A stretch of 29,047 bases of DNA from a virus, in IMG/VR virus record IMGVR_UViG_3300036800_000535, positions 1 to 29,047 of that record; one strand, 5' to 3'. The number at the start of each line of letters is the position of its first letter. Positions within the stretch are counted from its first letter, which is position 1. Both the position numbers and the translations under genes were made by a program. The notes under the pieces are model-generated. The model did no database searches and was not told the origin of the DNA. It worked only from the letters and a program-made list of their open reading frames with translations. Shown piece by piece: positions 5,839-19,425 of the stretch.

Positions 5839-6344
5839 AGATGAAGGCGCTGTCGCTGTGGCAGCCGCATGCGCAGGCCATTGCGCTGGATTTGAAGCCG
5901 TGGGAGACGCGGGGCTGGCCGACCAGCTATCGCGGGCCGCTGGCCATCCACGCGGCCAAGCGTCTGTGGACGGAGTCCGATGCGTGGCATGACGAGGCGC
6001 GGCGGCTCATGCGCGGCTTCGACTTCCGGCTGGCCTACGGCGCGGTGGTGTGCGTGGTGGAGCTGGTCGACTGCGTGCGCACCTCGGAGCTGCGCGGCAA
6101 GATTACTCCGGAGGAGGAGTTCTGGGGCGACTTCTCCGACGGCGAGCGCGGCTGGGGACGGTACGCGTTCAAGCTCGCGAATGTGCAGGTGCTGGCGGAG
6201 CCGCTGGTAACGCGCGGGCATCAGGGATTTTTTGAAGTGGAACTCGACGGCTTTCGTGCGCCGGATACGCTCACGCTGCCGTTGTTTAACCACCCCGGCG
6301 ACGTGGACCTGTCGCCGGGGAACCGGAGGGAGCGCCATGAGTGA
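5835..6344 (+). CDS. ASCH-domain protein
   Basis: A 169-residue protein opening with the ASCH hallmark (ALSLWQPHAQAIAL, KPWETRGWPTSYRGPLAIHA), a fold related to the PUA RNA-binding domain. ASCH proteins are thought to bind RNA or modified nucleosides, and some are hydrolases; the precise role here is unknown. The ATG overlaps the preceding frame's stop. The last 20 or so residues (NHPGDVDLSPGNRRERHE) are encoded by copy 1 of the hairpin repeat, so the natural C-terminus may have been replaced or extended by that element. The next ATG lies within its last codons. Confidence 0.8.
   Translation: MKMKALSLWQPHAQAIALDLKPWETRGWPTSYRGPLAIHAAKRLWTESDAWHDEARRLMRGFDFRLAYGAVVCVVELVDCVRTSELRGKITPEEEFWGDFSDGERGWGRYAFKLANVQVLAEPLVTRGHQGFFEVELDGFRAPDTLTLPLFNHPGDVDLSPGNRRERHE
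6291..6326 (+). repeat. hairpin repeat, copy 1
   Basis: A perfect 10-bp stem: CCCCGGCGAC (6293-6302) pairs with GTCGCCGGGG (6311-6320) around the loop GTGGACCT. It is preceded by CA and followed by AACCGG. It lies at the 3' end of the ASCH gene, ending about ten bases before the ATG at 6337. Related copies occur at 8616, 13816 and 19390. Confidence 0.85.
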
Positions 6345-6603
6345 AGCGGCGAAAGAAAAATATGCGGAAGAGCAGAAACCCTGTGTCGTAGCGCGGCTGG
6401 CGTGTGGGCATTTTGTTGCGGCCAGCATGTTAGATGTCGCCGGACGGGATGGCTGCATCAGCTTGGAGTCGCTGTTGGAACTTAAAGAGTTCATGCAGGA
6501 GTTCCCCGACGATACTGCTTTCGAGTTGCGGCCAGTCAGCTTTGTGCGCAGGGGCGGCTTAACCTTCGGGGCCCACTGCACAGGGAAATCGGCTCATGAG
6601 TAA
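6337..6603 (+). CDS. small protein of unknown function
   Basis: An 88-residue protein starting at ATG 6337, with GGAGGG about seven bases upstream; it overlaps the ASCH gene by eight bases. It contains the segment VVARLACGHFVAASML, then DGCISLESLLELKEFM and a final strand region. A CGH pair is seen, but no full metal motif. The hairpin repeat copy lies directly upstream and could affect translation. Function unknown. Confidence 0.6.
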   Translation: MSEAAKEKYAEEQKPCVVARLACGHFVAASMLDVAGRDGCISLESLLELKEFMQEFPDDTAFELRPVSFVRRGGLTFGAHCTGKSAHE

Positions 6604-6874
6604 GCAGCGGTGGGACCTGACCTCGACGCATGCGCTGGAGGCGGCGGCGGAGTGGCTTCGCAAGGGCTCCGACGCGACCGTGGTGATGGTTATTCGCGGG
6701 CAGGACTTCGCCTTTGCGGTGGCCGAGGATTGCGCGCCGTCGGATGCGGCGGAGCTGGTGCGCGAGCTGCTGCCGCAGATGGTCGAAGAGACGAATCGGG
6801 CGCGCGTGGCCCGGCGCGAGGAGAAAACCAGAAAACGCGCCGCGTCGATCCTCGACCAGGCTCGCGGGCTTTGA
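6596..6874 (+). CDS. small protein of unknown function
   Basis: A 92-residue protein overlapping the previous gene by eight bases. It reads as a compact alpha/beta fold: helix (THALEAAAEWLRKG), strands (ATVVMVIRGQDFAFAVAE), then a long helix with a basic C-terminus (RREEKTRKRAASILDQ). No family recognised. A T-rich 37-base gap follows, with GAGGGGAG as the ribosome site for the next gene. Confidence 0.6.
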   Translation: MSKQRWDLTSTHALEAAAEWLRKGSDATVVMVIRGQDFAFAVAEDCAPSDAAELVRELLPQMVEETNRARVARREEKTRKRAASILDQARGL

Positions 6875-6911
6875 GGTTGTTTGATTTTTTTGTTGTGAGG
6901 GGAGAACGGGG

Positions 6912-7241
6912 ATGAGGGTAAATATCTACGCGGAAGAGCTGACAGATCGGGTCGAGCTCGTCGTAAAAGAAATCGAAGGCCGCAGCTATACGGCGGTGCG
7001 ATTCTATCTGGAGCTGCCGTGCACCATTAACAACCAAGGCCCGTATGCCAGCCCTAACGATGACCGTCCCACGAGAAACGTGAGGGGCCCATTCATTCAT
7101 CGGCCCGGTGACGACGATTCCGCGGCAGTCACATTCTGGGGCAAGCGCGATCTGCGGACTCTCCTGCGCAAGGCGCTGGACCTGCTGGATGCGCACTACG
7201 CCGAACCGGTCGAGCTGCCGCCTCCGGAGCCCGCGCCTTAA
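6912..7241 (+). CDS. conserved-looking early phage protein
   Basis: A 109-residue protein beginning MRVNIYAEELTDRVELV, with paired features GRSYTAVRFYLELP and DDDSAAVTFWG followed by a helix (LRTLLRKALDLLDAHY). This start and the SAVTFW segment recall a small protein family I have seen in many phage early regions, without known function. The ribosome site (GAGGGGAG) is strong. The C-terminus is Pro/Glu-rich. Confidence 0.65.
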   Translation: MRVNIYAEELTDRVELVVKEIEGRSYTAVRFYLELPCTINNQGPYASPNDDRPTRNVRGPFIHRPGDDDSAAVTFWGKRDLRTLLRKALDLLDAHYAEPVELPPPEPAP

Positions 7242-7257
7242 TTCCATAAACGAAAAC

Positions 7258-7316
7258 GCTACGTAGCAGCTCGCCGGGGCGGCGAGGACGGTGAAGGTGT
7301 GCGCGCAGTCTTCACC
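7258..7316 (+). promoter_or_regulatory. candidate operator region before the XRE-type regulator
   Basis: The 118-base gap ahead of the regulator gene holds a perfect palindrome GCTACGTAGC (7258-7267), a CTCGCC/GGCGAG hairpin at about 7270-7286, and an inverted repeat GGTGAAG (7290-7296) with CTTCACC (7310-7316). XRE-family regulators commonly bind such dyads near their own promoter, so these are operator candidates. No convincing -35/-10 pair was found. Confidence 0.35.
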
Positions 7317-7359
7317 GCGATGGGGTGAGTGTGCGTGGGGCGGGAACGGGCTGGAGACG

Positions 7360-7653
7360 ATGGCGAATAGGAATGGACGGCCGCGGCGGACGGATGCCGA
7401 TCGTGCGTACCTGCTGGCGCTGGGAGCTCGCATTGTGGAGGTGCGCAATCGGCGGCAATGGTCGCGGCGCGAGCTGTCGGAGGCGGCGCAGTTGAGCGAG
7501 GAAACGCTGCACCACTACGAGCACGGAAGCAAGATGCCCACGGTGGCCTCGGCGCTGCGCCTGGCGAAGGCGCTGGATGTGGGGCTGGGCTGGCTGCTGA
7601 AGGGTCCGAAAGAGAACGTCGCCGCGGCGGCGAACGACAAGGGGCAGGCATGA
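7360..7653 (+). CDS. XRE-family helix-turn-helix regulator
   Basis: A 97-residue protein with a Cro/C1-type helix-turn-helix (about residues 20-82): LGARIVEVRNRRQWSRREL, SEAAQLSEETLHHYEHGSK, then PTVASALRLAKALDVG and LGWLLKG. This is the usual XRE layout, with the basic N-terminus as a possible DNA arm. There is no protease or dimer domain, so it resembles Cro or a small repressor rather than LexA/C1. I chose ATG 7360 after GGAG over the GTG at 7291. It likely controls early transcription, perhaps through the dyads just upstream. Its stop overlaps the next ATG. Confidence 0.88.
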   Translation: MANRNGRPRRTDADRAYLLALGARIVEVRNRRQWSRRELSEAAQLSEETLHHYEHGSKMPTVASALRLAKALDVGLGWLLKGPKENVAAAANDKGQA

Positions 7654-7895
7654 CACCGAAGCGGACAGATCAAGAATTTGTAAGAAGTCGGTGGCGCTCA
7701 GCGTGCGTTCTTCCCGGTGGCGTTGACTCGCACCCTCGGCTCAACATGTATGCGGTTTTCGTCGGGGCTTCTAACCTCAAAGGCGGAAATGGTAAGCGGA
7801 GAAAAACTGGCTGGTATACATCCGAATCCGAAGCCTGGATGGCCGCCGCAAAGAGATTGGGCAATGCTAACGAAGCGGGGCGGGGGCGGGCGTGA
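7650..7895 (+). CDS. small protein of unknown function
   Basis: An 81-residue protein coupled by ATGA to the regulator upstream and by GTGA to the replication gene downstream. It contains a conserved-looking block (KTGWYTSESEAWMAAAKRL) that resembles small phage proteins found beside replication genes; that resemblance is only by eye. The DNA is visibly less GC-rich than its neighbours. Confidence 0.55.
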   Translation: MTPKRTDQEFVRSRWRSACVLPGGVDSHPRLNMYAVFVGASNLKGGNGKRRKTGWYTSESEAWMAAAKRLGNANEAGRGRA

Positions 7896-8980
7896 GCGGA
7901 CCGGTGGAGATACCGAAGCGCGACAAGCGCAACCCCGGCCACTGCTGGCAGGACAACGAGCTCTATGACGTCTTCCAGCCGGTGTTGGGCGCGCTGCCGA
8001 CGCATGTTTTCGCGGTGATGAGCCGCTGGTGTTACGGGCATGAGGTGCAGATGGGGGTGCGGGAGATCGCGGCCCGGGCGGGCGTGAGCCGGAGCACGGT
8101 GCAACGCGCCATGCTGGCCATGCAGGCGCTCAACATGATCCGGATCTGCGAGGGGCGGGGACGCACGGCGGCGACCTGGGACCTGCTCGATCTGAAGGAG
8201 GCGGCGCGGGCGCTGGGCGCTGGTTTCGATGCCCGCGAGCGCTGCTGGACGCTCAGCGCTCACCAGCAAAAAGATGCGCGGAAGCGGATCGCGGATGCCT
8301 GGCGCGGGGCGGGAGTTTGTGTCTCTGACGGGGACGCAAAACATGATGAGGAAAACAGCGTGGAAAAGGCCTGTTGTGTCTCTGACAGGGACGCGACGGG
8401 TTCGGTTGTGTCCCACGTTGTGTCCCAGAATCGGGGTGTTTGTGTCCCAAATCGGGGGGGGCTATTAGATATACAAGACACAAAGACTCTAAACAAAAAC
8501 CCATCCCCTGCCCCTTCCCGCACAACGCGGGAAGGGGTGAGTGTTTCACCGGCTCGCGATACGGCTAATCCCCTCGCAACGCGGCGGGAAAAGGCGACGG
8601 CTCTCGACGAGAGCTCACCCCAGCGACGTGGACCTATCGCCGGGGACCCCGAGGGCGCGGCAGTGGCGGCGGATCGGGTGATGCGGGAGTGCTGCTTCGG
8701 AGGCCGACGGCTGCCGAAGCTGCTGGGCGAGGTGCTGGCGCGGTATGCGCAGCAGCTAGCTCAGGTCGAGGGTGAAGAGCCCGATGACGCAGCCTTCGAC
8801 GCGTCTGCGTCCGCGATGATTGCCGCCTGGCGCGAGTACGAGGAAAGCAAGCAGCATCTGCGCTGGGTCTGCGGCCCGGCGAAGTTCTTCTCTGGCGGGA
8901 TGTGGCTGAACGCCGACGGCTGGCCCTGGGACCGCGAGCGGATGGAGCGCGAGCGCGGCGCGAGAGTGGGTGCGCGATGA
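7892..8980 (+). CDS. phage replication initiator, lambda O-like layout
   Basis: A 362-residue protein from a GTG overlapping the previous stop. The N-terminal part (about 20-105) is a winged helix-turn-helix: LPTHVFAVMSRWCYGHEVQM, then REIAARAGVSRSTVQRAM and a wing at RICEGRGRTAATWDLL. A long low-complexity linker (about 140-255) encodes the iteron-like repeats and hairpin repeat copy 2. The C-terminal domain (about 258-362; RLPKLLGEVLARYAQQL, LRWVCGPAKFFSGGMWL) probably recruits helicase machinery. A DNA-binding head, an origin within the gene and a distinct tail match the lambda O plan. No phage polymerase or helicase is in the window, so host enzymes may be recruited. The initiator role is inferred. 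Confidence 0.75.
   Translation: MSGPVEIPKRDKRNPGHCWQDNELYDVFQPVLGALPTHVFAVMSRWCYGHEVQMGVREIAARAGVSRSTVQRAMLAMQALNMIRICEGRGRTAATWDLLDLKEAARALGAGFDARERCWTLSAHQQKDARKRIADAWRGAGVCVSDGDAKHDEENSVEKACCVSDRDATGSVVSHVVSQNRGVCVPNRGGLLDIQDTKTLNKNPSPAPSRTTREGVSVSPARDTANPLATRREKATALDESSPQRRGPIAGDPEGAAVAADRVMRECCFGGRRLPKLLGEVLARYAQQLAQVEGEEPDDAAFDASASAMIAAWREYEESKQHLRWVCGPAKFFSGGMWLNADGWPWDRERMERERGARVGAR
8317..8500 (+). other. candidate replication origin: iterons plus AT-rich stretch
   Basis: Five direct copies of TTGTGTCYCW start at 8317, 8374, 8406, 8418 and 8440, and one inverted copy (AGACACAA) lies at 8476-8483. The first two are part of a longer near-identical block, 8318-8337 and 8375-8394, differing at one base. 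They run into an AT-rich stretch (about 8462-8500) that contrasts sharply with the GC-rich surroundings. Repeats beside an easily melted segment inside an initiator gene are the arrangement of lambdoid origins. The repeats stay in the reading frame of the initiator linker. Confidence 0.6.
8616..8651 (+). repeat. hairpin repeat, copy 2
   Basis: CCCCAGCGAC (8618-8627), loop GTGGACCT (8628-8635), ATCGCCGGGG (8636-8645), then ACCCCG. The stem has two mismatches (A·C at the fifth pair and C·A at the loop end). It lies in frame inside the linker of the replication initiator, encoding QRRGPIAGDPEG, so it was tolerated as protein. Confidence 0.75.
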
Positions 8981-9450
8981 GGGCGCGCAAGCGGGTGTTG
9001 GTGGCGTGTGTGGCGCAGGTGGATGCGGAGTGGCTGAAGTTTCTGTTGGAGCTGCGTGGTCCGTATGCGGTGACGGTGGTTGCGGGTGCCGCAGATGCGC
9101 TGCAGGTGCTGGATGGGGCGCAGCATTGCGGGCAGCGCTTCGATCTGCTGCTGGCGAGTCTGGGATGGACGGAAGAGTCGAACCTGATGGCGCTGGAAGC
9201 GAAGCGCGTGCATGAGGGTTTGAAGGTGGTTATCTTCAGCCACACCTCCTGCTCGTATGAGCGGGCCTGTCACGCCGACGTGTTTCTTCCCAAGGCGCGG
9301 TGCAGCCCTGTCGAAATGCTGGAGTGTGTGCGGATCGCGACGGCGCGCAAGCGCGGGCCGATGAAGTGGGCGGTTGGCACGGTGCGGGAAGGGCCGCGGC
9401 GCCGCGAGGGCGTCAAGCTAACCGCCAAGGGAGGGGGTAACTGGGGATGA
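8977..9450 (+). CDS. receiver-like (CheY-fold) protein lacking the phosphorylation Asp
   Basis: A 157-residue protein coupled by ATGA to the replication gene. Residues 5-120 follow the alternating strand/helix pattern of response-regulator receivers: VLVACVAQ, YAVTVVAGAADALQVL, FDLLLASLGW, LKVVIFSHT, ADVFLPKA. K106 matches the conserved receiver Lys, but S61 stands where the phospho-accepting Asp belongs and the N-terminal acidic pair is missing. It is probably an atypical, unphosphorylated receiver fold used for protein contacts. The C-terminal 40 residues are basic and probably disordered. Receiver-only proteins are unusual in phages, and I cannot name its partner. Confidence 0.6.
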   Translation: MRARKRVLVACVAQVDAEWLKFLLELRGPYAVTVVAGAADALQVLDGAQHCGQRFDLLLASLGWTEESNLMALEAKRVHEGLKVVIFSHTSCSYERACHADVFLPKARCSPVEMLECVRIATARKRGPMKWAVGTVREGPRRREGVKLTAKGGGNWG

Positions 9451-9650
9451 GTTGGCATGAGAATGAAGTCCGCAAGATTGCCGATGTTTCATGCCGCAAG
9501 TTTGGCCATCGAATTTATGTTGTAAAGATCAATCGAGGAGCTGTGATCGGCAAAGCCGTATCCCCTTATGGTGCCTACGTCAGGGCCTATCAGTTCCTAC
9601 GGACTACATTGCCACCACCTGAAGCAGAGCAAACCATGCGTCGAGGTTGA
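9447..9650 (+). CDS. small protein of unknown function
   Basis: A 67-residue protein coupled by ATGA to the receiver-like gene. It is basic and reads as alpha/beta (VRKIADVSCRKFGHRIYVV, GAYVRAYQFLRTTL). Base composition is less GC-rich than its neighbours. It is the last gene before the long intergenic region. Function unknown. Confidence 0.5.
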   Translation: MSWHENEVRKIADVSCRKFGHRIYVVKINRGAVIGKAVSPYGAYVRAYQFLRTTLPPPEAEQTMRRG

Positions 9651-9998
9651 CGGGGGATTGGATGCGGTGTTTGGTCACTTATAGGCAACCACGCAGCAGA
9701 TTTTCCTTGCGCGACGGGCAACCGGTGATATGGTTTGCTTCGTAACCCAGAACAATTGGCCGTCGCGAGACGGAGCCGACTTATCCCCGGCTTAAACCAA
9801 CCCAGATAGTAACGCCCAAAGATACGCGAACCCGTGTCTGGGCGTTTGTGTTTTTGAAGTATCTCCTGGCCGTGCCGCACGCCGGCTGGGGAAATCCGGA
9901 GAGCAGGGGTGGCCGGTGCGGAGGTGTAGTGCCCACTCCGGAGTTTTTCTGGCCGCAGGCTAAGGAAAGCTAAACACTTGTTGACGAGGAAGGGATTC
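9651..9998 (+). other. 348-base intergenic region with stacked hairpins
   Basis: No gene is supported here. The stretch is less GC-rich than the rest and holds several structures in series: a CCGTC/GACGG stem closed by a GCGA tetraloop (9760-9773), a GCCG/CGGC hairpin (9775-9791), the strong terminator at 9811-9855, and a weaker hairpin (about 9920-9940) before TTTTT at 9944-9948. A poor sigma70-like pair (TTGCGC 9707-9712, 16-base spacer, TATGGT 9729-9734) is possible. It likely separates early from late transcription and should contain the promoter for the genes at 9999 onward. Confidence 0.5.
9811..9855 (+). terminator. strong rho-independent terminator
   Basis: AACGCCCA (9811-9818) pairs with TGGGCGTT (9839-9846), and inside it GATACG (9821-9826) pairs with CGTGTC (9833-9838) with one G·T pair, leaving a six-base loop and a two-base bulge. 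The T-rich tail TGTGTTTTT (9847-9855) follows directly. It ends the early operon. Confidence 0.8.
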
Positions 9999-10214
9999 AT
10001 GTCTGACGGGCGTCCGCGAATAAGAAAACGTTTCCATCTGTACGCTGCGGAGCCCGCGATGCCCTCGCGAATCATTTTCAGCACGTCATTCGAGAAGGGT
10101 GAAGCTGCTGTTGCGGAAGGCAGGTTCCGGCGCGTGAAGGACCAGCAGACCGGCGAACACGTCGGGTATCAGATCATGCCGGAACATCTACGAGGAGAAA
10201 AGGCGCATGTCTGA
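9999..10214 (+). CDS. small protein, paralogue of the next gene
   Basis: A 71-residue protein starting MSDGRPRIRKRFHLYAAE after GAGGAAGGG. It aligns along its length with the first 60 residues of the next gene: MSxGR, FHxY, RII, SF, a VAxG spaced before RRV, then GxHxGYQI. The two are therefore a tandem duplication, this one lacking the partner's C-terminal half. An in-frame start at 9978 is less likely because the ribosome site favours 9999. Function unknown. Confidence 0.65.
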   Translation: MSDGRPRIRKRFHLYAAEPAMPSRIIFSTSFEKGEAAVAEGRFRRVKDQQTGEHVGYQIMPEHLRGEKAHV

Positions 10215-10662
10215 AGGGCGCAAGAGCTTTCACGTGTATCACTCCGAGACGGTACTCGGCTGGCGCATCATCCGCAAGATTTCGTTTGACGCCGGCGAGA
10301 GCAAGGTAGCGCAGGGCGTGTGGCGTCGGGTGAATGACGAGCTGGGCAACCACATCGGCTATCAGATTCTTTCGGCGGCGGCGCATCGCGTGGATCTCGA
10401 TCTGCCCTCGCGTCCGCAGCCGGTGTCGATCACCGCGGCGCAGTCGGAGCTGAATGCTTACACCGTGTTCACCGATGGCAGCTCGCGCACCGCGGGCATG
10501 ACCGAGGAGCGGCGCATGGAGCGGGCGGCGCGCGGTCTCGATCCCGAAGATGAAGTGGAGCGGCTGCAGATGAAGATTTCCGTATTCAAAAAACTTGGCG
10601 CGGCCAGGGGCGACATTATCCGGGTGTGGCCGCTTGATCGCGCCGAGCCGGTAGGAGTGTAA
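10207..10662 (+). CDS. protein of unknown function, longer paralogue
   Basis: A 151-residue protein overlapping the previous gene by eight bases. Residues 1-60 are paralogous to it (SFDAGESKVAQG, WRRVNDELGNHIGYQI). The C-terminal half is separate: a Thr/Ser-rich linker, then a charged helix (MTEERRMERAARGLDPEDEV) and a final strand region (DIIRVWPLDRAE). No known domain recognised. It is the first substantial gene after the terminator. Confidence 0.65.
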   Translation: MSEGRKSFHVYHSETVLGWRIIRKISFDAGESKVAQGVWRRVNDELGNHIGYQILSAAAHRVDLDLPSRPQPVSITAAQSELNAYTVFTDGSSRTAGMTEERRMERAARGLDPEDEVERLQMKISVFKKLGAARGDIIRVWPLDRAEPVGV

Positions 10663-10670
10663 GCGAATTT

Positions 10671-10790
10671 ATGAGACTTCCTTTTCCTTTGGACTTCAGT
10701 CCATGCAACCGCAAACGCACGCCGGCGATGATCGGGAAACGTCATCGCTCTCTGAAAGCCCGCGCCAATCGGCGCAAGGCTAAGCGATAA
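10671..10790 (+). CDS. very small basic protein
   Basis: A 39-residue frame, MRLPFPLDFSPCNRKR then a strongly basic C-terminus (KRHRSLKARANRRKAKR). The GGAG in TAGGAGTG lies rather far upstream (about 14 bases), so initiation may be weak. The basic tail suggests nucleic-acid binding, but there is no direct evidence. It fills the gap between two better supported genes. Confidence 0.4.
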   Translation: MRLPFPLDFSPCNRKRTPAMIGKRHRSLKARANRRKAKR

Positions 10791-10794
10791 CGAT

Positions 10795-11091
10795 ATGGCA
10801 ATTCGAGCTGGGCACGGCGGACAGACAGGGGTTGACTTCAACGTCGTGGCCTCGCCATCGGTGGGCAGTGTGGTTGAGCCGAAGTATTGCGAGATTTGCG
10901 GGCGGCAGTTCTTTCGTCTGCGTGGCTCCGGCGTAAAGCTGTGCGCGCCGCATGCGGAGAGTGCGGCGAGGCGGGCGATGGCTGAATCGGGCGTCCTCGT
11001 TGACACGAATCCTTCGCAGTCCTTTGGGCGCAGGATTCGGCGGGTGGGCGCGGTGTCGAGACGGAAGTTCGTACCGGCGAGGATTGCTTGA
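10795..11091 (+). CDS. small zinc-ribbon-like protein
   Basis: A 98-residue protein with a short zinc-knuckle-like part: CEICGRQFFRLRGSGVKLC followed by AxH, so two Cys plus a Cys/His pair could bind one zinc. The remainder is Ala/Arg-rich and probably flexible. Its stop overlaps a possible TTG start of the next gene. The ribosome site is weak. Function unknown; a nucleic-acid-binding role is a guess. Confidence 0.55.
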   Translation: MAIRAGHGGQTGVDFNVVASPSVGSVVEPKYCEICGRQFFRLRGSGVKLCAPHAESAARRAMAESGVLVDTNPSQSFGRRIRRVGAVSRRKFVPARIA

Positions 11092-11108
11092 CGTTCTGCG
11101 GAGGCCAG

Positions 11109-11429
11109 GTGATCAAAGTGAGTTTGAAGTGCGCGATTCTCGGGATGTGTCTGTTTGCGGCGATGGACGGCAAGTATCCGCCGGTGCTGGCCCAGCAGCA
11201 TGAGATGAGCGCGGAAGACGCCACCCAGGACGCGAACATTACCGAACTGAACAAGCACCTGGAGAACACGGACAGGAACGTCTCGTCGCTGCAGAGTGCG
11301 GGCAACTCGAACGCTCTGGCGATTGCCGAGATGCAGGGCGAGGAGCGGGTGTTCTTCACCATTCTGGGGATTTTGTCGGGCGCGGGCATCGTGCTGCAGG
11401 TGAAGACGAAGAAGACGGTGGCCGCTTAG
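11109..11429 (+). CDS. membrane protein of the lysis region (XhlA/holin-like layout)
   Basis: About 106 residues from GTG 11109, which has GGAGG four bases upstream; a TTG overlapping the previous stop (11088) is an alternative. It has a signal-like N-terminus (LKCAILGMCLFAAM), a polar helix of coiled-coil type (DANITELNKHLENTDRNV) and a C-terminal hydrophobic segment (FFTILGILSGAGIVLQV) ending in Lys. A polar coiled coil followed by a C-terminal anchor resembles XhlA-type holin accessory proteins, and the neighbours are a two-helix membrane protein and a muralytic enzyme. The lysis role is inferred from layout and context; a spanin-like role is the alternative. Confidence 0.5.
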   Translation: MIKVSLKCAILGMCLFAAMDGKYPPVLAQQHEMSAEDATQDANITELNKHLENTDRNVSSLQSAGNSNALAIAEMQGEERVFFTILGILSGAGIVLQVKTKKTVAA

Positions 11430-11451
11430 TGACGTTTGCGGGCGAGGCGGC

Positions 11452-11628
11452 ATGATGACGGATGCTTTGGTGATCTACCTGCTGATCGGGATCGTACTGT
11501 CGGCGCTCGTGTCGCGGACGATTGGCGATAGAGACCTGGTTCTGCTCAGGGACTGGCTTGACTTCGTCGCAGTGTTTGTTTTGATCGCCCTGCTGTGGCC
11601 GGTGGTTCTTTGGTGTCGCGCATCATGA
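11452..11628 (+). CDS. small two-helix membrane protein, holin candidate
   Basis: A 58-residue frame from ATG 11452 (GGCGAGGCGG upstream). Two hydrophobic segments (LVIYLLIGIVLSALV and FVAVFVLIALLWPVVLW) flank a charged loop (RTIGDRDLVLLRDW). The size, two-helix topology and ATGA overlap with the muralytic gene fit a class II holin, which would open the inner membrane for the enzyme. It could also be another small membrane protein. Confidence 0.55.
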   Translation: MMTDALVIYLLIGIVLSALVSRTIGDRDLVLLRDWLDFVAVFVLIALLWPVVLWCRAS

Positions 11629-12146
11629 CCTTTGCGCGTGAGGATGTAGCGGCACAGTGTCGTCGCTGGGGCGGATCGTTGTGGCTGCCTCCGGAGATTG
11701 ACGGCGTGAAGCTGCTGTGGGCGCTGGCCGGGAATGAATCGAGTTTTGGCGCGAACGCCGCGCCCAGGCATGAGCCGGCCTATGACGTGGGCGGGAAGTT
11801 CGCGAAGGTTCCCGCGCAGGCCAAGCTGCTGGAGCTGTATGGCTCGGCGGGCGCGTGCAGCTATGGGCCGTGGCAGGAGATGCTGGTGAACTGCGTGGCG
11901 GGCACGAAGCCGGACGATATGGCGCAGTTGGGCCGCTGCGGGCTGGAGACGACGGCCTTCATCAATCGCCGCATCCTGAAGGGCGAGCATGCGACGACGA
12001 TTGCCGAGATTGCCGAGGCGTACAACTCCGGCAAATGGCAGTGGGAGACGGTTCCGCGCGGTGTGGAGACCTACGCGGAGGATTGCGTGAAGTACTACGA
12101 GACGTTTCCGATGCCGGCGGCGGTGGTGAATCAGGAGGCGATATGA
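11625..12146 (+). CDS. lytic-transglycosylase-like endolysin
   Basis: A 173-residue protein with the lysozyme/SLT-fold signature: NESSFG with E38 as the likely catalytic acid, GPWQEM (81-86) in the position of the G-x-x-Q motif, and AYNSGKW (132-138) matching the AYN-x-G motif. Such enzymes cut the MurNAc-GlcNAc bonds of peptidoglycan. It has no signal peptide, so export would depend on a holin; the small membrane protein encoded just upstream is coupled to it (ATGA). A virion-associated role is possible, but the lysis-cassette position favours endolysin. Confidence 0.75.
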   Translation: MTFAREDVAAQCRRWGGSLWLPPEIDGVKLLWALAGNESSFGANAAPRHEPAYDVGGKFAKVPAQAKLLELYGSAGACSYGPWQEMLVNCVAGTKPDDMAQLGRCGLETTAFINRRILKGEHATTIAEIAEAYNSGKWQWETVPRGVETYAEDCVKYYETFPMPAAVVNQEAI

Positions 12147-12301
12147 GTCTGTTTGGCAAGGTTGTCCGGACGGCGGTGAATGTGGCGACGTTGCCCGTCT
12201 CCGTCGCGAAGGATGTGGTGACGCTTGGAGGGGTGACGCGCCCCAAGGGAAGCTATCTGGTCGAGAAGCTTCAGAAGATCAAAGACGAAGCGGAAGACTA
12301 A
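12143..12301 (+). CDS. small phage protein with amphipathic N-terminus
   Basis: A 52-residue protein coupled by ATGA to the endolysin gene, with a good ribosome site (CAGGAGG). The segment VSVAKDVVTLGGV resembles a widespread family of very small phage proteins with the pattern DVVKDVxTLGG followed by a charged helix; their role is unknown. The N-terminal half could lie on a membrane. It may take part in lysis, by location only. Confidence 0.6.
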   Translation: MSLFGKVVRTAVNVATLPVSVAKDVVTLGGVTRPKGSYLVEKLQKIKDEAED

Positions 12302-12475
12302 AAAACAAGTTTGCAGCGGCGGCTGTCTGAAAGGTTCGCCGGGAAGATTGCCGGGCATTGCGACCTGGCTGCGTGTCGATGCATGCGCCGAGCCTTGTAA
12401 GCCGGACCGCACCGATTCCGCTCGACGCCGCTGCAGAGCAACAGTTTCGATTCATTCGAAAAAGAGGAGAAAGTT

Positions 12476-12937: not shown

Positions 12938-12967
12938 CGATATACCCCAAACGACGACTGCAGTAAA

Positions 12968-13014
12968 CGCCCATGTGCGCTGGATCGCCAAGTCGGGAAT
13001 CCAGCGCGTGGGCG
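12968..13014 (+). promoter_or_regulatory. hairpin next to the ribosome site of the papain-like gene
   Basis: GCGCTGGAT (12977-12985) pairs perfectly with ATCCAGCGC (12999-13007), and the stem extends through CGCCCA (12968-12973) with TGGGCG (13009-13014) across a small internal loop. There is no T-tract, so it is not a classic terminator. It ends one base before GTGAGGAG, the ribosome site for the ATG at 13026, and may affect translation or protect the transcript. Confidence 0.4.
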
Positions 13015-13025
13015 CGTGAGGAGCT

Positions 13026-13550
13026 ATGGCCAGCATTCGGGTGCGATTTATTCGGAACGCGGGCTTTACGTCCGGCGGCATCTCGCGGCTGACGGGTAGC
13101 CTGTTTTCCCATGTGGAGTTCGGTACGCCGGAGGGAACCTGGATCGGCGCGCACATCGGCGGCGGCATTCAGGAGCGGCCCGCCGACTATTGCAATCCGG
13201 TGCTGGAGTACGTCTACGAGGTTCCCTGCACGGCGTTGCAGCAGACGCAGGGGCTGGCGAAGATGCGCGCGGGGATCGGCACCAAGTACAACACGCTGGA
13301 CATCGTCGGCCTGATGTTTCAGGCGCGCTCGCTGCGCTCTCCGCATCGGCTGATCTGCAGCCAGTTCTACGCCGACATCATGCTGTTCGTGTTCGGCGCG
13401 ACGCGCTTCCTGAATGTGAATGAGGACTGGACCTACAGGATCACTCCGGAGACCGGGCATCTTAGCCCGCTGCTGGTGGGCCACCGGGTGAAGGCCCTCG
13501 TGTCCGGCAGAGAGCTGTCGCCGGAGATGTTCGGGCGGATCCCGCGCTAG
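13026..13550 (+). CDS. permuted papain-like (NlpC/P60 superfamily) hydrolase
   Basis: A 174-residue protein with the two marks of permuted papain-like enzymes: an early His in GSLFSHVEFG (H29) and a later Cys in RLICSQFYADI (C111), with a strand pattern between them (TWIGAHIGGGIQERP). Such enzymes cut peptide or amide bonds, often in peptidoglycan. The gene sits between the lysis and packaging modules, so a lysis or virion-entry role is likely. Its last residues (ELSPEMFGRI) are encoded by a 37-base repeat also found at the start of the large tail gene, so the C-terminus may be a recombination product. Confidence 0.65.
   Translation: MASIRVRFIRNAGFTSGGISRLTGSLFSHVEFGTPEGTWIGAHIGGGIQERPADYCNPVLEYVYEVPCTALQQTQGLAKMRAGIGTKYNTLDIVGLMFQARSLRSPHRLICSQFYADIMLFVFGATRFLNVNEDWTYRITPETGHLSPLLVGHRVKALVSGRELSPEMFGRIPR
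13504..13540 (+). repeat. 37-base direct repeat, left copy
   Basis: This segment near the end of the papain-like gene matches 23450-23486 in the large tail gene at 36 of 37 bases (mismatch at 13509). The last 31 bases (13510-13540) are identical. Both copies are read in the same frame as ELSPEMFGRI. Confidence 0.95.
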
Positions 13551-13564
13551 CGGAAGGCGGGACG

Positions 13565-13813
13565 GTGCAGGACGAAGACTGCGCGCAGGTGGTGGCGATG
13601 CAGTTCGCCGGCGGAATGTCGCTGGCGAAGCTCGCCGAGGAGTGGGAGCGCGACCCGGCCTGGGTTGAGGAAGCGATTCGACGGGCGCTGCTGGAGGCGA
13701 TTCCGCAGCGAGACGGCGGATTGAAGATGCCGCGCTCGGAGGAGCGCGCGGCGCGTAGCGAAGAGGTTGAGGCGTTGAGCGGTGTGCAGCGCAAGCTGAA
13801 CTTATGGACGTGA
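13565..13813 (+). CDS. small helical protein, possibly DNA-binding
   Basis: An 82-residue protein from GTG 13565 (GGAAGG upstream). The central part (MSLAKLAEEWERDPAWVEEA) reads like a helix-turn-helix, as in small phage regulators or packaging accessories placed before terminases. The C-terminal half is charged. It ends three bases before hairpin repeat copy 3. No exact family recognised. Confidence 0.5.
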   Translation: MQDEDCAQVVAMQFAGGMSLAKLAEEWERDPAWVEEAIRRALLEAIPQRDGGLKMPRSEERAARSEEVEALSGVQRKLNLWT

Positions 13814-13815
13814 AG

Positions 13816-13852
13816 CACCCCAGCGACGAGGACCTGTCGCCGGGGACCCCGG
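13816..13852 (+). repeat. hairpin repeat, copy 3
   Basis: CCCCAGCGAC (13818-13827), loop GAGGACCT (13828-13835), GTCGCCGGGG (13836-13845), then ACCCCGG. Nine of ten stem pairs form, with A·C at the fifth pair. It lies in the gap between the small helical protein and the small terminase; its 3' flank runs into the GGAG ribosome site (13851-13854) for the ATG at 13860. Confidence 0.85.
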
Positions 13853-13859
13853 AGACAGT

Positions 13860-14384
13860 ATGAAGATGACGCCGAGAAAAGCCACCTTCATCACCGAGTA
13901 CTCGCTGCATGGCAACGGGACACAGGCGGCAGTGAAGGCCGGAGTTCCGGAGAGCAGCGCCCATGTAACCGCTTCGCGGTGGCTGAAGGAGCCGAAGATC
14001 GCGGCGGCCATCGATGAGCAGAAGGAGCGGCTAAAGGCCAAGCTGGAACTCACGGCGGAGCGTGTGCTGCTGGAGCTGATGCGGATCGCGTATTACGATC
14101 CTGCGAAGCTCTACGACGAACATGGCGAGCGCATTCCGGTGCATCTGCTCGATGAAGACACGCGGCGGGCGGTGGCATCCATCGAAGACGAGACCCGCAA
14201 GGCGAGCGGTACGACTACGCGAAGCCAGTACGTGAAGATGGCGGACAAAAAAGGCGCTGCCGAGCTTCTGGGCAAGTACCTGAAGCTGTTCACCGAGCGC
14301 GTGGAGCATGACGGGCGGGTGACGCTGGAGACGCTGATTTGCGGGAGCAAAGTTGATAGAGCAGGCGACCCAGAGGGTAGCTGA
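13860..14384 (+). CDS. terS: terminase small subunit
   Basis: A 174-residue protein with the Terminase_2-type N-terminal DNA-binding region: TPRKATFITEY, GNGTQAAVKAGV, SRWLKEPKIAAAI (about residues 3-50), followed by a helical oligomerisation segment (DEQKERLKAKLELTAERVL) and a C-terminal domain ending in GKYLKLF. It recognises the phage packaging site and loads the large subunit. It directly precedes the large-subunit gene, overlapping it by 32 bases. Translation starts close to hairpin repeat copy 3, which may influence expression. Confidence 0.85.
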   Translation: MKMTPRKATFITEYSLHGNGTQAAVKAGVPESSAHVTASRWLKEPKIAAAIDEQKERLKAKLELTAERVLLELMRIAYYDPAKLYDEHGERIPVHLLDEDTRRAVASIEDETRKASGTTTRSQYVKMADKKGAAELLGKYLKLFTERVEHDGRVTLETLICGSKVDRAGDPEGS

Positions 14385-15828
14385 GTGGCGGCGCGATCCG
14401 GCTCGCTTTGTAAGGGACGTGTTCGGCGCCGAGCCGGATCTGTGGCAGGCGGAAGTGCTGGGGCTGCTGGGCAAGCCGGGACGCAAGCGCGTGGCCATGA
14501 AGGCCTGCGCAGGTCCGGGCAAGACGGCGGTGCTGGCCTGGGCGGGATGGCATCGGCTGGCGTGCTTTGCCGCGCCGATGGAGCATCCCAAGGGAATCGC
14601 GGTCTCGATCACCGGCGACAACCTGAAGCGCAACCTGTGGGCGGAGATGGCGCGCTGGAGGAATGCGAGCCCGTTTCTGCAGCGCGCGTTTGAGTGGACG
14701 GGGTCGCGGATCGCGGCGCGGGATCATGCGGAGACGTGGTTTCTGACCGCGACCAGCTGGCCGAAGACGGCGGACCTTGAAACCATCGGGCGCACACTGT
14801 CGGGGCTGCATTCGCGTTTTCCGTTTTACCTGATCGACGAGAGCGGGGATATTCCGCCCAACCTGCTGCGCTCGGCCGAGCAGGGGCTGTCGAGCTGCGA
14901 GGACGGGCTGATCATTACCGCCGGGAACACTACCAGCCAGACCGGGCTGCTCTACGAAGCGTCGGTGCGGCTGAGGGGCGAATGGAAAGACGGCAAGTGG
15001 GTGGTGATCTCGATCACCGCCGATCCGGAGAGTGCGCGGCGGACGCCGCGGGTAGACATCGAGTGGGCGCGGCAGCAGATCGCCGCTTACGGGCGCGAAA
15101 ATCCGTGGGTGATGGCCTATGTGCTGGGCGAGTTCCCACCCGGGTCGATCAACGCGCTGCTGAGCGTGGAAGAAGTGGAAGCGGCGATGAACCGCTCGCC
15201 GGCGGCGGGCAGCTACGAATGGGCGGTGAAGCGGCTGGGTGTGGACGTGGCCAGGTTTGGCGACGATCGTACCGTGCACTTTCCGCGGCAGGGGCTGGCG
15301 GCGTTTCAGCCGGCGATTATGCGCCATGCGCGGGGCAGCGCGGTGAGCGTGGATATTGCCAACCGCACCATGGGTATGATGAACGACCTGGGCGCGGAGG
15401 AAGCGTACTTCGACGACACGGTGGGATGGGCGCATGGAGCAGTGGACGTGCTGCGCGCCGCCGGCCGCCAGGTGTACGCGATTCAGTTCGACGCGCCGAG
15501 CGGGAACCCGCGCTACCTGAATATGCGGGCGCAGATGTGGATGGAGATGGCGGAGTGGGTGAAGACGGGATGCCTGCCGAATATTCCGGAAATGGTGGCG
15601 GAGCTGACCACGCCGACCTACTTCTTCTCCAAGGGCAAGTTCCAGATCGAGGCCAAGGATCAGGTGAAGAAGCGGCTGGGGCGGTCGCCTGACCTGGGTG
15701 ACGGATTGGCGCTGACCTTTGCGCTGCCGGATACACCCAAGCGCGAGGGATCGGGCGTGATGGGCAAGCGATCGGAAGGGCGGCGGCTTGAGGAGTACGA
15801 CCCTTATGCGCACATGGGCGGACAGTGA
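14353..15828 (+). CDS. terL: terminase large subunit
   Basis: A 491-residue packaging motor. Walker A is ACAGPGKT (51-58), Walker B is FYLIDES (158-164, with D162 and E163), and the RNase H-like nuclease acidic residues appear as D298 (GVDVARFGDD), D354/D355 (AYFDDTVGW) and D447/D450 (SPDLGDGLALTF). The ATPase pumps DNA into the prohead and the nuclease cuts the concatemer. The start is TTG at 14353, preceded by GGGAG with good spacing; it overlaps the small subunit by 32 bases. All catalytic parts are intact. Confidence 0.95.
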   Translation: MIEQATQRVAEWRRDPARFVRDVFGAEPDLWQAEVLGLLGKPGRKRVAMKACAGPGKTAVLAWAGWHRLACFAAPMEHPKGIAVSITGDNLKRNLWAEMARWRNASPFLQRAFEWTGSRIAARDHAETWFLTATSWPKTADLETIGRTLSGLHSRFPFYLIDESGDIPPNLLRSAEQGLSSCEDGLIITAGNTTSQTGLLYEASVRLRGEWKDGKWVVISITADPESARRTPRVDIEWARQQIAAYGRENPWVMAYVLGEFPPGSINALLSVEEVEAAMNRSPAAGSYEWAVKRLGVDVARFGDDRTVHFPRQGLAAFQPAIMRHARGSAVSVDIANRTMGMMNDLGAEEAYFDDTVGWAHGAVDVLRAAGRQVYAIQFDAPSGNPRYLNMRAQMWMEMAEWVKTGCLPNIPEMVAELTTPTYFFSKGKFQIEAKDQVKKRLGRSPDLGDGLALTFALPDTPKREGSGVMGKRSEGRRLEEYDPYAHMGGQ

Positions 15829-16295
15829 TGAGTGAGATGGATGTGGTGATCGAGCAATGCCTCGTCGGTGAGCTCTTTAACGATCCCGATATGGGGGAAC
15901 TCTGCGCAGAGTATGAGCAGGAATGCGCGAACCCGGAGTTGGGCAAGACGACTCCTCAGCGTTCGCTCTATGAGCGTCTGGAGGGGTGTGGAGCGGGACG
16001 ATGCTTTGCCGCGCGGCTTGAGGGAAGGCTTCGCGGGTTCGCGTTCATGCTGTTGGCGGATTTGCCTCACTACGGTAAGAAATGCGCGACGGTTGAAAGC
16101 CTGTTTATCGCGCGTGTAGCTCGGGCTGGGCAGCTCGGCTGGCGCATGATGGAAACCATCGATGCGCACGCCAAGGCGGCAGGATGCGAGGCGATCTTCT
16201 ACAGCGCGCCGGTGGATAGCAGGTTTGCGCGGCTGCTGCTGGGTACCACCCATTCCCTCTGGACAGGCTACGTCTTCACGAAGAGCTTGCGGTGA
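15828..16295 (+). CDS. GNAT-like acetyltransferase-fold protein
   Basis: A 155-residue protein from ATG 15828 (TGATG overlap with the terminase stop; a GTG one codon upstream is possible). The pattern FAARLEGRLRGFAFML, then ATVESLFIARVARAGQLG and WRMMETIDAHAKAAGCEAIF, follows the strand/helix order of the GNAT fold, with ARAGQLG in the place of the acetyl-CoA-binding R/Q-x-x-G-x-G/A loop. The motif is imperfect, so activity is uncertain. Such proteins are common near phage packaging and head genes, with unknown substrates. Confidence 0.55.
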   Translation: MSEMDVVIEQCLVGELFNDPDMGELCAEYEQECANPELGKTTPQRSLYERLEGCGAGRCFAARLEGRLRGFAFMLLADLPHYGKKCATVESLFIARVARAGQLGWRMMETIDAHAKAAGCEAIFYSAPVDSRFARLLLGTTHSLWTGYVFTKSLR

Positions 16296-16816
16296 GCGCC
16301 CTGATTCATACGGACGCGGTGGGAGCCGTGGGACGCAAGGCGACTGTTAGCACGTTGCAGCCGCGGTATGCAACGCTGCCGTCGACGACTCCGGAGCTGC
16401 TCGCGCAGATCGGCGAGTTTGAGAATGCCGTGCTCGGTAATGGAGCGGTCGAGGTGCCGACGCAGCATGTGATTCATGCGGGGATGTACGCGCGGACGAT
16501 TGTGATGCCTGCGGGTGTGGTGCTGACCGGCGCGCTGATGAAGCGGGCGACGCTGGTGATCGTGACGGGAAAGGCTGCGGTGCTGGCCGGTGACGTATGG
16601 GTTGAGCTCGACGGGTACAACGTGATGCCGGCGAGCGCGGGACGGAAGCAGGTGTTCGTGTCGCGCTCGCAGGCGGTTATTACGATGGTTTTCCCGACGG
16701 CGGCGAAGACAGTGGAAGAAGCCGAGGCGGAGTTCACGGATGACTGTGCGCGGCTTTTGAGCCGGCGTCAGGATGCGAACACGGTTCTGATTACCGGGAC
16801 CCCGGAAGGAGCGTAG
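16292..16816 (+). CDS. cupin-like phage protein
   Basis: A 174-residue protein from a GTG overlapping the previous stop. The middle (about 55-140) is a run of short strands with cupin-like turns: PTQHVIHAGMYARTIVMPAG, ATLVIVTGKAAVLAGD, VMPASAGRKQVFVSRS, VITMVFPT. The C-terminal helix (EEAEAEFTDDCARLLSRRQD) is typical of a small family seen beside podovirus portal genes. The metal ligands of enzymatic cupins are mostly lacking, so a structural or binding role is likelier. Function is not established. Confidence 0.6.
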   Translation: MSALIHTDAVGAVGRKATVSTLQPRYATLPSTTPELLAQIGEFENAVLGNGAVEVPTQHVIHAGMYARTIVMPAGVVLTGALMKRATLVIVTGKAAVLAGDVWVELDGYNVMPASAGRKQVFVSRSQAVITMVFPTAAKTVEEAEAEFTDDCARLLSRRQDANTVLITGTPEGA

Positions 16817-16818
16817 CC

Positions 16819-17172
16819 ATGTCGGGAGCAATTTCGGCGACCGCGATTGCGGCGATTGTAGGAGCTGGGGCGGCGGTGGGCGGCACAGCCTACAGCGTCT
16901 ACAACGGCCAGCAGCAGAACGCGCAGCAGAAGAAGGCGCTTGCCGCGCAGAACACCGCGCAGCAGCAGGCCGAGGCGAACTCGCTATCCACCGAGCGGCA
17001 GAGCGCGGTGGCCGAGAACGCGGCCAACCAGCAGAAGCCGAATGTGTCGGCGATTCTGGCGCGCGCGGCCACCATGGGCAATAACGGTTTGAGCAGCACC
17101 ATGCTGACCGGACCGACGGGCGTGAGCGCGGGCAATCTGAACCTGGGCAAGCAGACGTTGTTGGGGAGCTGA
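16819..17172 (+). CDS. small virion-type protein (hydrophobic N-terminus, Gln/Ala-rich middle)
   Basis: A 117-residue protein after AAGGAG. It starts with a hydrophobic, Gly/Ala-rich segment (AIAAIVGAGAAVGGTAYSVY), continues with a Gln-rich helix (QQQNAQQKKALAAQNTAQQ) and ends STMLTGPTGV...LGKQTLLG. This three-part form, with a MLTGP-type segment near the end, is typical of small podovirus proteins found around the portal gene, possibly minor ejected proteins. The exact role is unknown. Confidence 0.6.
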   Translation: MSGAISATAIAAIVGAGAAVGGTAYSVYNGQQQNAQQKKALAAQNTAQQQAEANSLSTERQSAVAENAANQQKPNVSAILARAATMGNNGLSSTMLTGPTGVSAGNLNLGKQTLLGS

Positions 17173-17696
17173 TGCAACGAGAGATTGAAACAGATAAACG
17201 CGTGCTTGACCCCTGCTGCGGCGGTCGCATGATGTGGTTCGACCGCAGCCACCCGGATGTGGTGTACGGCGATATACGAACCGAAACCATAATGGTTACT
17301 GACCGCTCGCATGGTAGAACCGATGGCACACGTACATTGCGCATCGAGCCAGATGTGACACTTGACTTCAGAGCGCTCCCTTACACTGATGGATCGTTTA
17401 AGCTCGTGGTTTTCGATCCGCCACACGTCGTACGATCCGGGCCAAAATCTTGGTTAGCAGCGAAGTACGGTAAGCTCGCCAACTCGTGGCGGGATGATCT
17501 GACCATGGGATTCGCGGAGTGCTTCCGCGTCCTCGATGCTGATGGAGTTCTCATCTTCAAATGGAATGAGACTCAGATAAAGCTGACTGAAGTTCTGAGC
17601 TTGGTTCCATGTCAGCCGCTGTTCGGCAACCGAAGCGGTAAGAAAGCGGGCACGCATTGGCTCGTATTCATGAAGCCACGCGAGGCCTCACGATAG
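17172..17696 (+). CDS. SAM-dependent methyltransferase, probably DNA-modifying
   Basis: A 174-residue protein. VLDPCCGGRMMWFD (11-24) is the SAM-binding motif I region, and VVFDPPHVV with D82-P83-P84-H85 is the catalytic motif IV, as in amino-group DNA methyltransferases (usually DPPY). The C-terminal GVLIFKWNE and THWLVFMKP are typical of small phage versions. Its base composition is visibly less GC-rich than its neighbours, with ATA, TTA and AGA codons, so it looks like a recently acquired moron. It probably protects phage DNA from host restriction. TGATG couples it to the previous gene. Confidence 0.8.
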   Translation: MQREIETDKRVLDPCCGGRMMWFDRSHPDVVYGDIRTETIMVTDRSHGRTDGTRTLRIEPDVTLDFRALPYTDGSFKLVVFDPPHVVRSGPKSWLAAKYGKLANSWRDDLTMGFAECFRVLDADGVLIFKWNETQIKLTEVLSLVPCQPLFGNRSGKKAGTHWLVFMKPREASR

Positions 17697-17708
17697 AGAT
17701 CGAAAATT

Positions 17709-19388
17709 ATGGCTGAGAATTTTACGTCGACGCGGCAGAAGCTGCTGATGCGCTGGGGACAGATGCGCACCGAGCGCGCCAGCTGGTGGGGGCACTGGCA
17801 GGAAGTCTCCACTTACGTGCTGCCCTGGTCGGGGCGCTACTTCCGGCAGGACCGCGACAAGGGCACGCGGCGCGGCAATCAGATTTACGACAACACCGGC
17901 ATCCGCGCGCTGCGCACGCTGGGTGCGGGGCTGATGGCCGGCGCGACCAGTCCGGCGCGGCCCTGGTTCCGGCTGGCCACGCACGATCCGCAGCTGAACC
18001 AGGCGCAGCCGGTCAAGCTGTGGCTGAGCGAAGTGGCGGACCGCATGCACGCGGTGTTTCAGAAGTCGAATACCTATCGTGCGCTGCACCAGGTGTATGA
18101 GGAGCTGGGCGCGTTCGGCACCGCGTCGTCGATCGTGCTGCCCGACTTCAACACCGTGATCCACCACTATCCGCTGACTACCGGCGAATACGCGATCGCC
18201 ACCGACTGGCAGGGACGCGTGAATACGCTCTACCGCGAGTTTGAAAAGCCGGTGAGCGAGATGGTGAAGGAGTTCGGCCTGGCCAATTGCTCGACCATGG
18301 TGCAGTCGCTCTACGGCAACGGAAACCTGGGGGCGTGGATCCCCATCGTGCATGCCATCGAGCCGCGTTCCGACCGCGACCCTTCGAAGCGCGACGCGCG
18401 CAACATGGAATGGGCCAGCTACTACTTCGAGCTTGGCGGAGACACGAGCCAGGTGCTGCGGGAGAGCGGCTTCAAACAGTTTCCCGCGGTGGTGCCGCGC
18501 TGGGCGGTGGCCGGTGGCGACATGTACGGCAACTCGCCGGGCATGGAAGCGCTGGGCGACATCAAGCAGCTGCAGCATGAGCAATTGAGGAAGGCGCAGG
18601 GCATCGATTACCAAACCAACCCTCCGCTGCAGGTTCCTGACAGCCTGAAGAACCGCGACGTGGAGCGGCTGCCGGGCGGGATCACCTTTGTGCCGGCGGG
18701 AAGCGGAAACGCCAAAGTGGAGACGGCGTTTGAGGTCCAGCTCAACCTGGGCGAGCTGCTGGGCGATATTCAGGATGTGCGCGAGCGCATCCGGCAGAGC
18801 TTCTTCTCCGATATTTTTCTGATGCTCGCTAACTCCACCAACCCGCAGATGACCGCGACCGAAGTGGCCGAGCGGCACGAAGAGAAGATGCTGATGATGG
18901 GCCCGGTGCTGGAGCGGCTGAACAACGAGCTGCTGTTTCCGCTGGTGGAGGCGACCTTCACGCACATGGTGGAGATGGGCGCGGTGCCGCCGGCGCCGCC
19001 GGAGCTGGCCGGGATGGACCTGAATGTGGAGTTCATCTCCATGCTGGCACAGGCGCAGCGGGCGATCGGCACCAACAGCGTGGACCGCTTTGTGGGCTCG
19101 CTGGGCACGGTGGCGCAGATGAAGCCGGATGTGCTGGACAAGTTCGATTCGGATGCCTGGGCGGACGCGTACAGCGACATGCTGGGCATCGATCCGAAGT
19201 TGGTTCTGGCGAATGATCAGGTGGCGATGATCCGGCAGTCGCGGGCGCAGGCCCAGGCGGCGCAGCAGAAGATCGCAGCGGCGGCGCAGGTAAGCGGCGC
19301 GGCCAAGAACTTTGCGCAGGCTGGAGCGGCAGCGCCGGGCGGAGCTGGTCCGCAGAGCCCGATCGATATGTTCAGCGGATACCAGTAG
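17709..19388 (+). CDS. portal protein (T7-type head-tail connector)
   Basis: A 559-residue protein recognised as the T7-like head-tail connector family: RASWWGHWQEVSTYVLPW near the start, IYDNTGIRALRTLGAGLMAG, VYEELGAFGTASSIV, GNSPGMEALGDIKQLQ and RIRQSFFSDIF...TATEV. Twelve copies form the ring through which DNA enters and leaves the head. The length matches the family (about 500-600). The last 50 residues are Ala/Gln-rich. A weak ribosome site precedes ATG 17709. Hairpin repeat copy 4 follows its stop immediately. Confidence 0.93.
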   Translation: MAENFTSTRQKLLMRWGQMRTERASWWGHWQEVSTYVLPWSGRYFRQDRDKGTRRGNQIYDNTGIRALRTLGAGLMAGATSPARPWFRLATHDPQLNQAQPVKLWLSEVADRMHAVFQKSNTYRALHQVYEELGAFGTASSIVLPDFNTVIHHYPLTTGEYAIATDWQGRVNTLYREFEKPVSEMVKEFGLANCSTMVQSLYGNGNLGAWIPIVHAIEPRSDRDPSKRDARNMEWASYYFELGGDTSQVLRESGFKQFPAVVPRWAVAGGDMYGNSPGMEALGDIKQLQHEQLRKAQGIDYQTNPPLQVPDSLKNRDVERLPGGITFVPAGSGNAKVETAFEVQLNLGELLGDIQDVRERIRQSFFSDIFLMLANSTNPQMTATEVAERHEEKMLMMGPVLERLNNELLFPLVEATFTHMVEMGAVPPAPPELAGMDLNVEFISMLAQAQRAIGTNSVDRFVGSLGTVAQMKPDVLDKFDSDAWADAYSDMLGIDPKLVLANDQVAMIRQSRAQAQAAQQKIAAAAQVSGAAKNFAQAGAAAPGGAGPQSPIDMFSGYQ

Positions 19389-19389
19389 C

Positions 19390-19425
19390 CACCCCACAAA
19401 CGAGGACCTGTTTGCGGGGGCCCCG
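19390..19425 (+). repeat. hairpin repeat, copy 4 (compensatory changes)
   Basis: CCCCACAAAC (19392-19401), loop GAGGACCT (19402-19409), GTTTGCGGGG (19410-19419), then GCCCCG. Relative to copies 1 and 3, three inner stem pairs differ on both arms (G-C to C-G, C-G to A-T, G-C to A-T), so pairing is kept while sequence is not; the fifth pair is A·C as in copies 2 and 3. It lies in the portal-staple gap, 25 bases before ATG 19451. Confidence 0.85.

Follow-up and report, generated by a model that had tools for sequence, protein, structure and literature searches.

What are the four similar hairpins in the IMG/VR virus record IMGVR_UViG_3300036800_000535, whose full 29,047 bases we call the window? 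An earlier note on this DNA had offered two readings: an RNA element that controls genes from just before their start codons, or a mobile palindrome resembling the repetitive extragenic palindromic (REP) sequences. Our results supported the second reading, through target-site duplications (TSDs), empty sites, insertion polymorphism and dispersed copies, and spoke against the first. Judged from sequence, the four copies most probably belong to a mobile, non-autonomous palindromic element that occurs in Acidobacteriaceae and in the phages presumed to infect them.

The whole window was scanned with a degenerate pattern allowing up to three mismatches. Exactly four copies were found, all on the + strand (Table 1), and none appeared in 100 dinucleotide shuffles. 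The 35-nt hairpins had been placed at 6291, 8616, 13816 and 19390; all of these coordinates were correct, and the stem, the 8-nt loop and the trailing GGGG were as described in all four copies. The claims that copy 1 pairs perfectly and that copies 2-4 carry an A·C at pair 5 held as well, but a second mispair in copy 2 (C·A at pair 10) had been overlooked. The CCCC-type 3' flank exists in copies 2-4 (ACCCC, ACCCC and GCCCC) but not in copy 1. Copy 4 does differ from copy 3 in three inner pairs on both arms.

The element is not limited to these four copies. A degenerate-motif scan detected it in 65 stretches of genome contigs, mostly of Acidobacteriaceae (Edaphobacter, Granulicella, Occallatibacter and Terracidiphilus), and scans of IMG/VR detected it in about 45 contigs. 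With a covariance model built from 60 distinct copies, ten host genomes yielded 11-98 copies each. A 134-kb phage contig that also has a large-terminase match (IMGVR_UViG_3300035696_000011, L145-L151) yielded 55, elsewhere counted as about 54, several of them tandem or clustered. The palindrome is thus mobile as the earlier note had supposed, but it is not confined to the phage, since host chromosomes share the family. Copy counts and gene contexts came from a hand-made scoring scan and a crude open reading frame (ORF) caller; for G009 the covariance model gave 55 copies and the script scan 31, the script having first demanded ACCT in the loop. The distribution was patchy: under strict filters, 10 of 247 genomes sampled throughout the phylum had the element, as did 17 of 150 genomes of one family, where the reversed control pattern gave zero. 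The density per kb was about 0.40 in the 134-kb contig, 0.14 in the window and 0.002-0.016 in host genomes, a contrast that is indicative only, as phages and hosts were picked for carrying copies. Eight scan loci outside Acidobacteriaceae (Streptomyces, Phycicoccus, Cellulomonas and others) were rejected as chance matches, most of which pair poorly, and were left out of the 87-copy flank test described below; one of them, L037, still has 9 of 10 pairs. The element was not found in a distant search of phages and plasmids (INPHARED and PLSDB), megablast of the first 25 kb of the window gave no match among phage records, and no report of the element sequence or of such repeats in Acidobacteria was found in the open literature.

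The flanks gave evidence for mobility. An in-register flank repeat of at least 5 nt was found in 18 of the 87 copies tested, whereas 2000 flank shuffles gave 1.03 on average and never more than 6. The larger sets gave 24 of 150 host copies (1.8 when shuffled) and 9 of 94 viral copies (0.6 when shuffled), that is 33 of 244 copies versus about 2 by shuffling. When host flanks were compared in a fixed 42-nt register, positions 3-6 matched in 50-57% of cases versus 25-29% in shuffles, but position 7, the usual place of the element's own C, showed no such agreement. The added length was 42 nt in 24 of the 29 copies with a clear TSD, which is explained by a 36-nt element plus a 6-nt TSD. The same length separated tandem copies in 12 of 17 cases, and both phage and host contain head-to-tail arrays in which two or three copies recur every 42 nt (L156 5519-5637 and 5957-6033, L307, L313). 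The targets listed were mostly C|GGNNNN, with exceptions.

Empty sites were found in hosts and in phages. A host repeat reads CAGCCGGCGAGGACGCCGGCGCTAC in L077, where it is empty, versus GGCGAG-C-[35 nt]-GGCGAG in L014 and L055, where it is filled. In the RNase R genes of two species, the element lies at different sites and in opposite orientations, so that each gene is the other's empty site; the proteins differ by exactly 14 residues. Two closely related genomes of Edaphobacter type show differences of 42 gap positions at three orthologous sites. Among phages, those with portals 83-86% identical do not have the element where the window has copies 3 and 4. In the related phage L168, sequence homologous to either side of copy 4 is present and the copy itself falls in a gap, but the gap is about 35 rather than 42 and lies in a poorly conserved stretch. 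At copy 2, the gap in homologues from related phages spans the element and is bigger than it. The homologue of the ORF carrying copy 1 in L008 and L166 aligns only up to residue 137. These two contigs and L004 are mutually near-identical and carry one copy each, elsewhere.

Copies also occur within genes, in either orientation and in different frames, and because 42 bases are 14 codons, an insertion of this length keeps the reading frame. The peptides read HP(T/S)DEDLSxGTP and SPHGRGPVxGDP, and GVPTDRSSSxGW from the other strand. In the window, copy 1 is translated in frame near the C-terminus of its ORF as NHPGDVDLSPGN, and copy 2 within its ORF as SPQRRGPIAGDP. Among host proteins, in-frame copies were seen in what we took, on reading the translations, to be PEP carboxylase, RNase R, FolP, Dus and ComEC. 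One DNA methylase gene of the 134-kb phage contig contains two in-frame copies.

The family consensus is C-CACCCC-NNNNAC-GWGGACCT-GTNNNN-GGGG-ACCCC, an element of about 36 bp. Its 10-bp stem has an invariant CCCC/GGGG clamp and a middle part that covaries, and its 8-nt loop is conserved. Aligned copies have the consensus ends CCACCCC and GGGGACCCC. The middle stem varies freely while its pairing is kept, even inside one phage contig. In the 60 distinct copies from the window and elsewhere, both-side changes were seen at 6 of the 10 pairs, which bears out the covariation first noticed in the window; double-change cells numbered 79 versus 25 in shuffles, and the covariation score was 0.324 versus 0.102, a level reached in 0 of 500 shuffles.

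The mispairs are asymmetric between the strands. A·C or C·A accounted for 57 mispairs in 81 distinct viral sequences (G·T 5, others 22) and for 36 in 96 host sequences (G·T 4, others 16). Since A·C on one strand is G·T on the other, the complement is the strand on which these departures still pair, and the A·C mispair reported earlier, although real, is better read as a G·T or G·U wobble of the opposite strand. Consistently, RNA folding of copies 2-4 gave -18.5, -20.5 and -16.9 kcal/mol for the complement versus -12.3, -17.4 and -14.5 kcal/mol for the strand shown, and DNA folding likewise favoured the complement in the two copies tested. The folded strand is probably the complement, 5'-GGGGT-CCCC...GGGG-TGG. 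The earlier idea that the trailing CCCC competes with the leading CCCC for the GGGG, giving two folds, was not borne out by folding, in which one hairpin dominates on either strand.

In conclusion, the family is new, and it is an unusually well-resolved case of very small mobile DNA rather than a gene switch. We suggest the following course of movement. An enzyme acting in trans would recognise the element in single-stranded, folded form, and the strand concerned is most likely the complement, 5'-GGGGT + hairpin + TGG-3', with single-stranded DNA (ssDNA) and RNA fitting alike. The folded strand would then be joined to a target whose two strands are cut about 6 nt apart, so that insertion, mostly at C|GGNNNN-like targets, would duplicate about 6 bp and usually add 42 bp (14 codons). 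Phages probably get copies from their hosts, some of them building up large numbers (54 in 134 kb), and could be carriers of the element from one host to another.

Several observations weigh against a mobile element of this kind. Most copies have no recognisable TSD, and an intact one was found in none of the four window copies, so that their status as insertions rests on their relatives and the family. The 42-nt differences at the Edaphobacter sites lie within a larger composite repeat and have no matching TSD, and one of the three alignments is split; because of the composite repeat and the lack of a matching TSD, gene conversion is possible there. This larger repeat, ACTGCGC...GCGGTCACTTCGTGA, holds the element at a fixed place in Edaphobacter-type genomes (L299-L306, L253-L255, L413-L414) and seems to multiply as a composite with the element inside. 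The mispair counts are not independent events, as copies share ancestry, and their asymmetry could be mutational, through strand-biased deamination, instead of a sign of the recognised strand. The host of the window phage is presumably a member of Acidobacteriaceae, to go by the distribution of the family. Finally, no mobilising enzyme was found, and both Y1 and RVT_1 are missing from some carriers. A reverse transcriptase was dropped as a universal partner because RVT_1 is not in every carrier; 4 of 12 carriers, including G002 and G025, gave no match, which in draft genomes is weak evidence. A quick look at the ORFs between or beside neighbouring copies at three loci revealed nothing obvious. 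Replication-strand bias was dropped because the GC skew, sampled in windows along a single chromosome, was too irregular to locate the origin.

One candidate for such an enzyme is a resident Y1 transposase of Acidobacteria (RAYT/TnpA-REP) that would mobilise the element as a REP. The REP-like size, the 5' tag plus hairpin on one strand and the strand-specific fold all agree with this, as TnpA-REP needs single-stranded REP (PMC8266576). Acidobacterial Y1 genes of the RAYT type have been described (PMC3733652), and 17 of the 19 carrier genomes examined had a Y1 match. In addition, GGGGCACC or its complement lies within 45 nt of 17 of 150 host copies versus about one expected, which places these copies as nested in REPs flanking Y1 genes. 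However, the element itself flanked none of 47 Acidobacteriaceae Y1 loci as a pair, and two loci with weak, partial Y1 matches (L141, L144) contained one copy. Instead, a different REP-like tag, GGGTGCCCC/GGGGCACCC, was present at 14 of the 47 (L123, L125, L126, L127, L134, L138, L139, L140, L376, L377, L382, L386, L388, L390). No Y1 match was found in G003, which has 98 copies, or in G250, although absence from draft assemblies is weak evidence. The element has no GTAG or CGTC tag and does leave a TSD, which is not generally expected of Y1 transposition. Mobilisation by a Y1 enzyme is therefore unlikely.

Covariation could also be a by-product of mutation, leaving mobility unaffected. Template switching is known for quasi-palindromes and copies changes from one arm to the other, and a middle stem that varies freely with its pairing kept, also within one phage contig, fits it. 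It could contribute to the mispair pattern too. On the other hand, an invariant clamp and a conserved loop imply recognition of something, and the 93 A·C versus 9 G·T mispairs of both sets together would need a strand-specific cause. As the source of the covariation, template switching is thus improbable, to about the same degree as a Y1 enzyme.

The weakest explanation, a cis-acting leader hairpin governing translation or transcript ends of the next gene, can draw on the covarying stem, on three window copies that lie shortly upstream of a start codon and on phage copies running 51 with and 27 against gene direction, but it is very improbable, because host copies run 47 with and 48 against local genes, the phage bias comes largely from one contig, many copies lie in frame inside coding sequences in both orientations, intergenic host copies sit between convergent rather than divergent gene pairs (24 versus 5, by crude gene calls), the mRNA-sense strand of copies 2-4 folds less well, and related phages keep the genes at the window sites without the element. 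For the start codons after copies 1, 3 and 4, the spacing of 8-26 bases was corrected to roughly 11-17, 10-15 and 27-32 nt, distances that vary with the chosen end of the element. The covariance models of Rfam 15 gave no match in the window up to E = 1.

By architecture, REP sequences and the Rickettsia palindromic elements (RPE) are the closest known kinds. GTAG/CGTC REPs (PMC3733652) and REPtrons (PMC8266576) are likewise hairpins of 20-40 nt that are dispersed, patchy among species and strand-specific in structure, with complementary stem changes within families and some intragenic copies; as a short palindrome dispersed in many copies per genome, our element resembles a REP in this respect. 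It differs in that the consensus ends of aligned copies show no terminal GTAG or CGTC tag next to the hairpin, in that copies do not flank the Y1 gene at the 47 loci and a Y1 gene is not in every carrier genome, and in its TSD and its presence in phage genomes. It also differs in that most copies stand alone or form head-to-tail tandems with a 42-nt period.

RPE, of which RPE-4 and RPE-6 have been described as CGTC REPs (PMC2229807; PMC3733652), are small palindromes found in frame inside protein genes, as our element is, and also between genes, and their movement mechanism is unproven too. They are roughly 100-200 bp long with the TSD listed as unknown (PMC2229807), in contrast to 36 bp, a TSD of about 6 bp and a fixed gain of 42 bp here. 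Their lineage is different, and the likeness is judged from behaviour. Bacterial miniature inverted-repeat transposable elements (MITEs) such as Correia, ERIC, RUP and YPAL (PMC2229807) are also short and non-autonomous, with a TSD and some in-frame ORF fusions. Unlike these units of about 100-200 bp (PMC2229807), our element is three to five times shorter and lacks terminal inverted repeats (TIRs), its palindrome being internal and its outer ends, CCA and ACCCC, not complementary. We tentatively suggest, at slightly less than even chances, that the family is a class separate from both Y1-REP systems and TIR-bearing MITEs, with a folded 36-nt strand (ssDNA or RNA), a target staggered by about 6 nt, a fixed, frame-preserving 42-nt gain, and phages as its high-density reservoir and vehicle between hosts. 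A further lead is the small dispersed repeats of Nostoc, which are a few tens of bases long and apparently mobile, but of another sequence and lineage.

The window contains a podovirus-like late cluster, with small terminase (PF03592), portal (PF12236), major head, tail and internal virion proteins. Near its left end, a 678-aa frame (438-2474) carries ParB_N and HTH_ParB domains, and 4391-5434 encodes a DUF5131 protein with a strong Pfam match. A 37-nt direct repeat (13504-13540 and 23450-23486, 97% identical) encodes GELSPEMFGRI and is shared by the end of ORF 13026-13550 and the start of the tail gene at 23416.

Table 1. Copies of the 36-nt element in the window and the ORFs that contain copies 1 and 2.
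Feature	Coordinates	Strand	Description	Score (bits)
Copy 1	6290..6325	+	perfect 10-bp stem; 3' tail AACCG	51.8
Copy 2	8615..8650	+		56.3
Copy 3	13815..13850	+	between ORF 13565-13813 and small terminase gene 13860-14384	60.4
Copy 4	19389..19424	+	directly 3' of portal stop codon, upstream of ORF 19451-19786	56.1
ORF with copy 1	5835..6344	+	169 aa; C-terminal end partly from copy 1; no Pfam family	
ORF with copy 2	7892..8980	+	362 aa; helix-turn-helix region; host gene of copy 2	

Transposase-driven movement of very small palindromic repeats had no experimental support at the time of one review (PMC2229807). This hairpin family is favourable for finding out how such repeats move: its TSD is measurable, its insertion length hardly varies, empty sites lie directly in housekeeping genes, and the asymmetry of its mispairs between the strands points to one folded strand. 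The gain of 14 codons means that conserved proteins can acquire in-frame peptides from a selfish repeat while their frame stays intact. The family is unusually dense in some phages, and 54 copies in one 134-kb phage contig suggest that phages could ferry such elements between bacteria.

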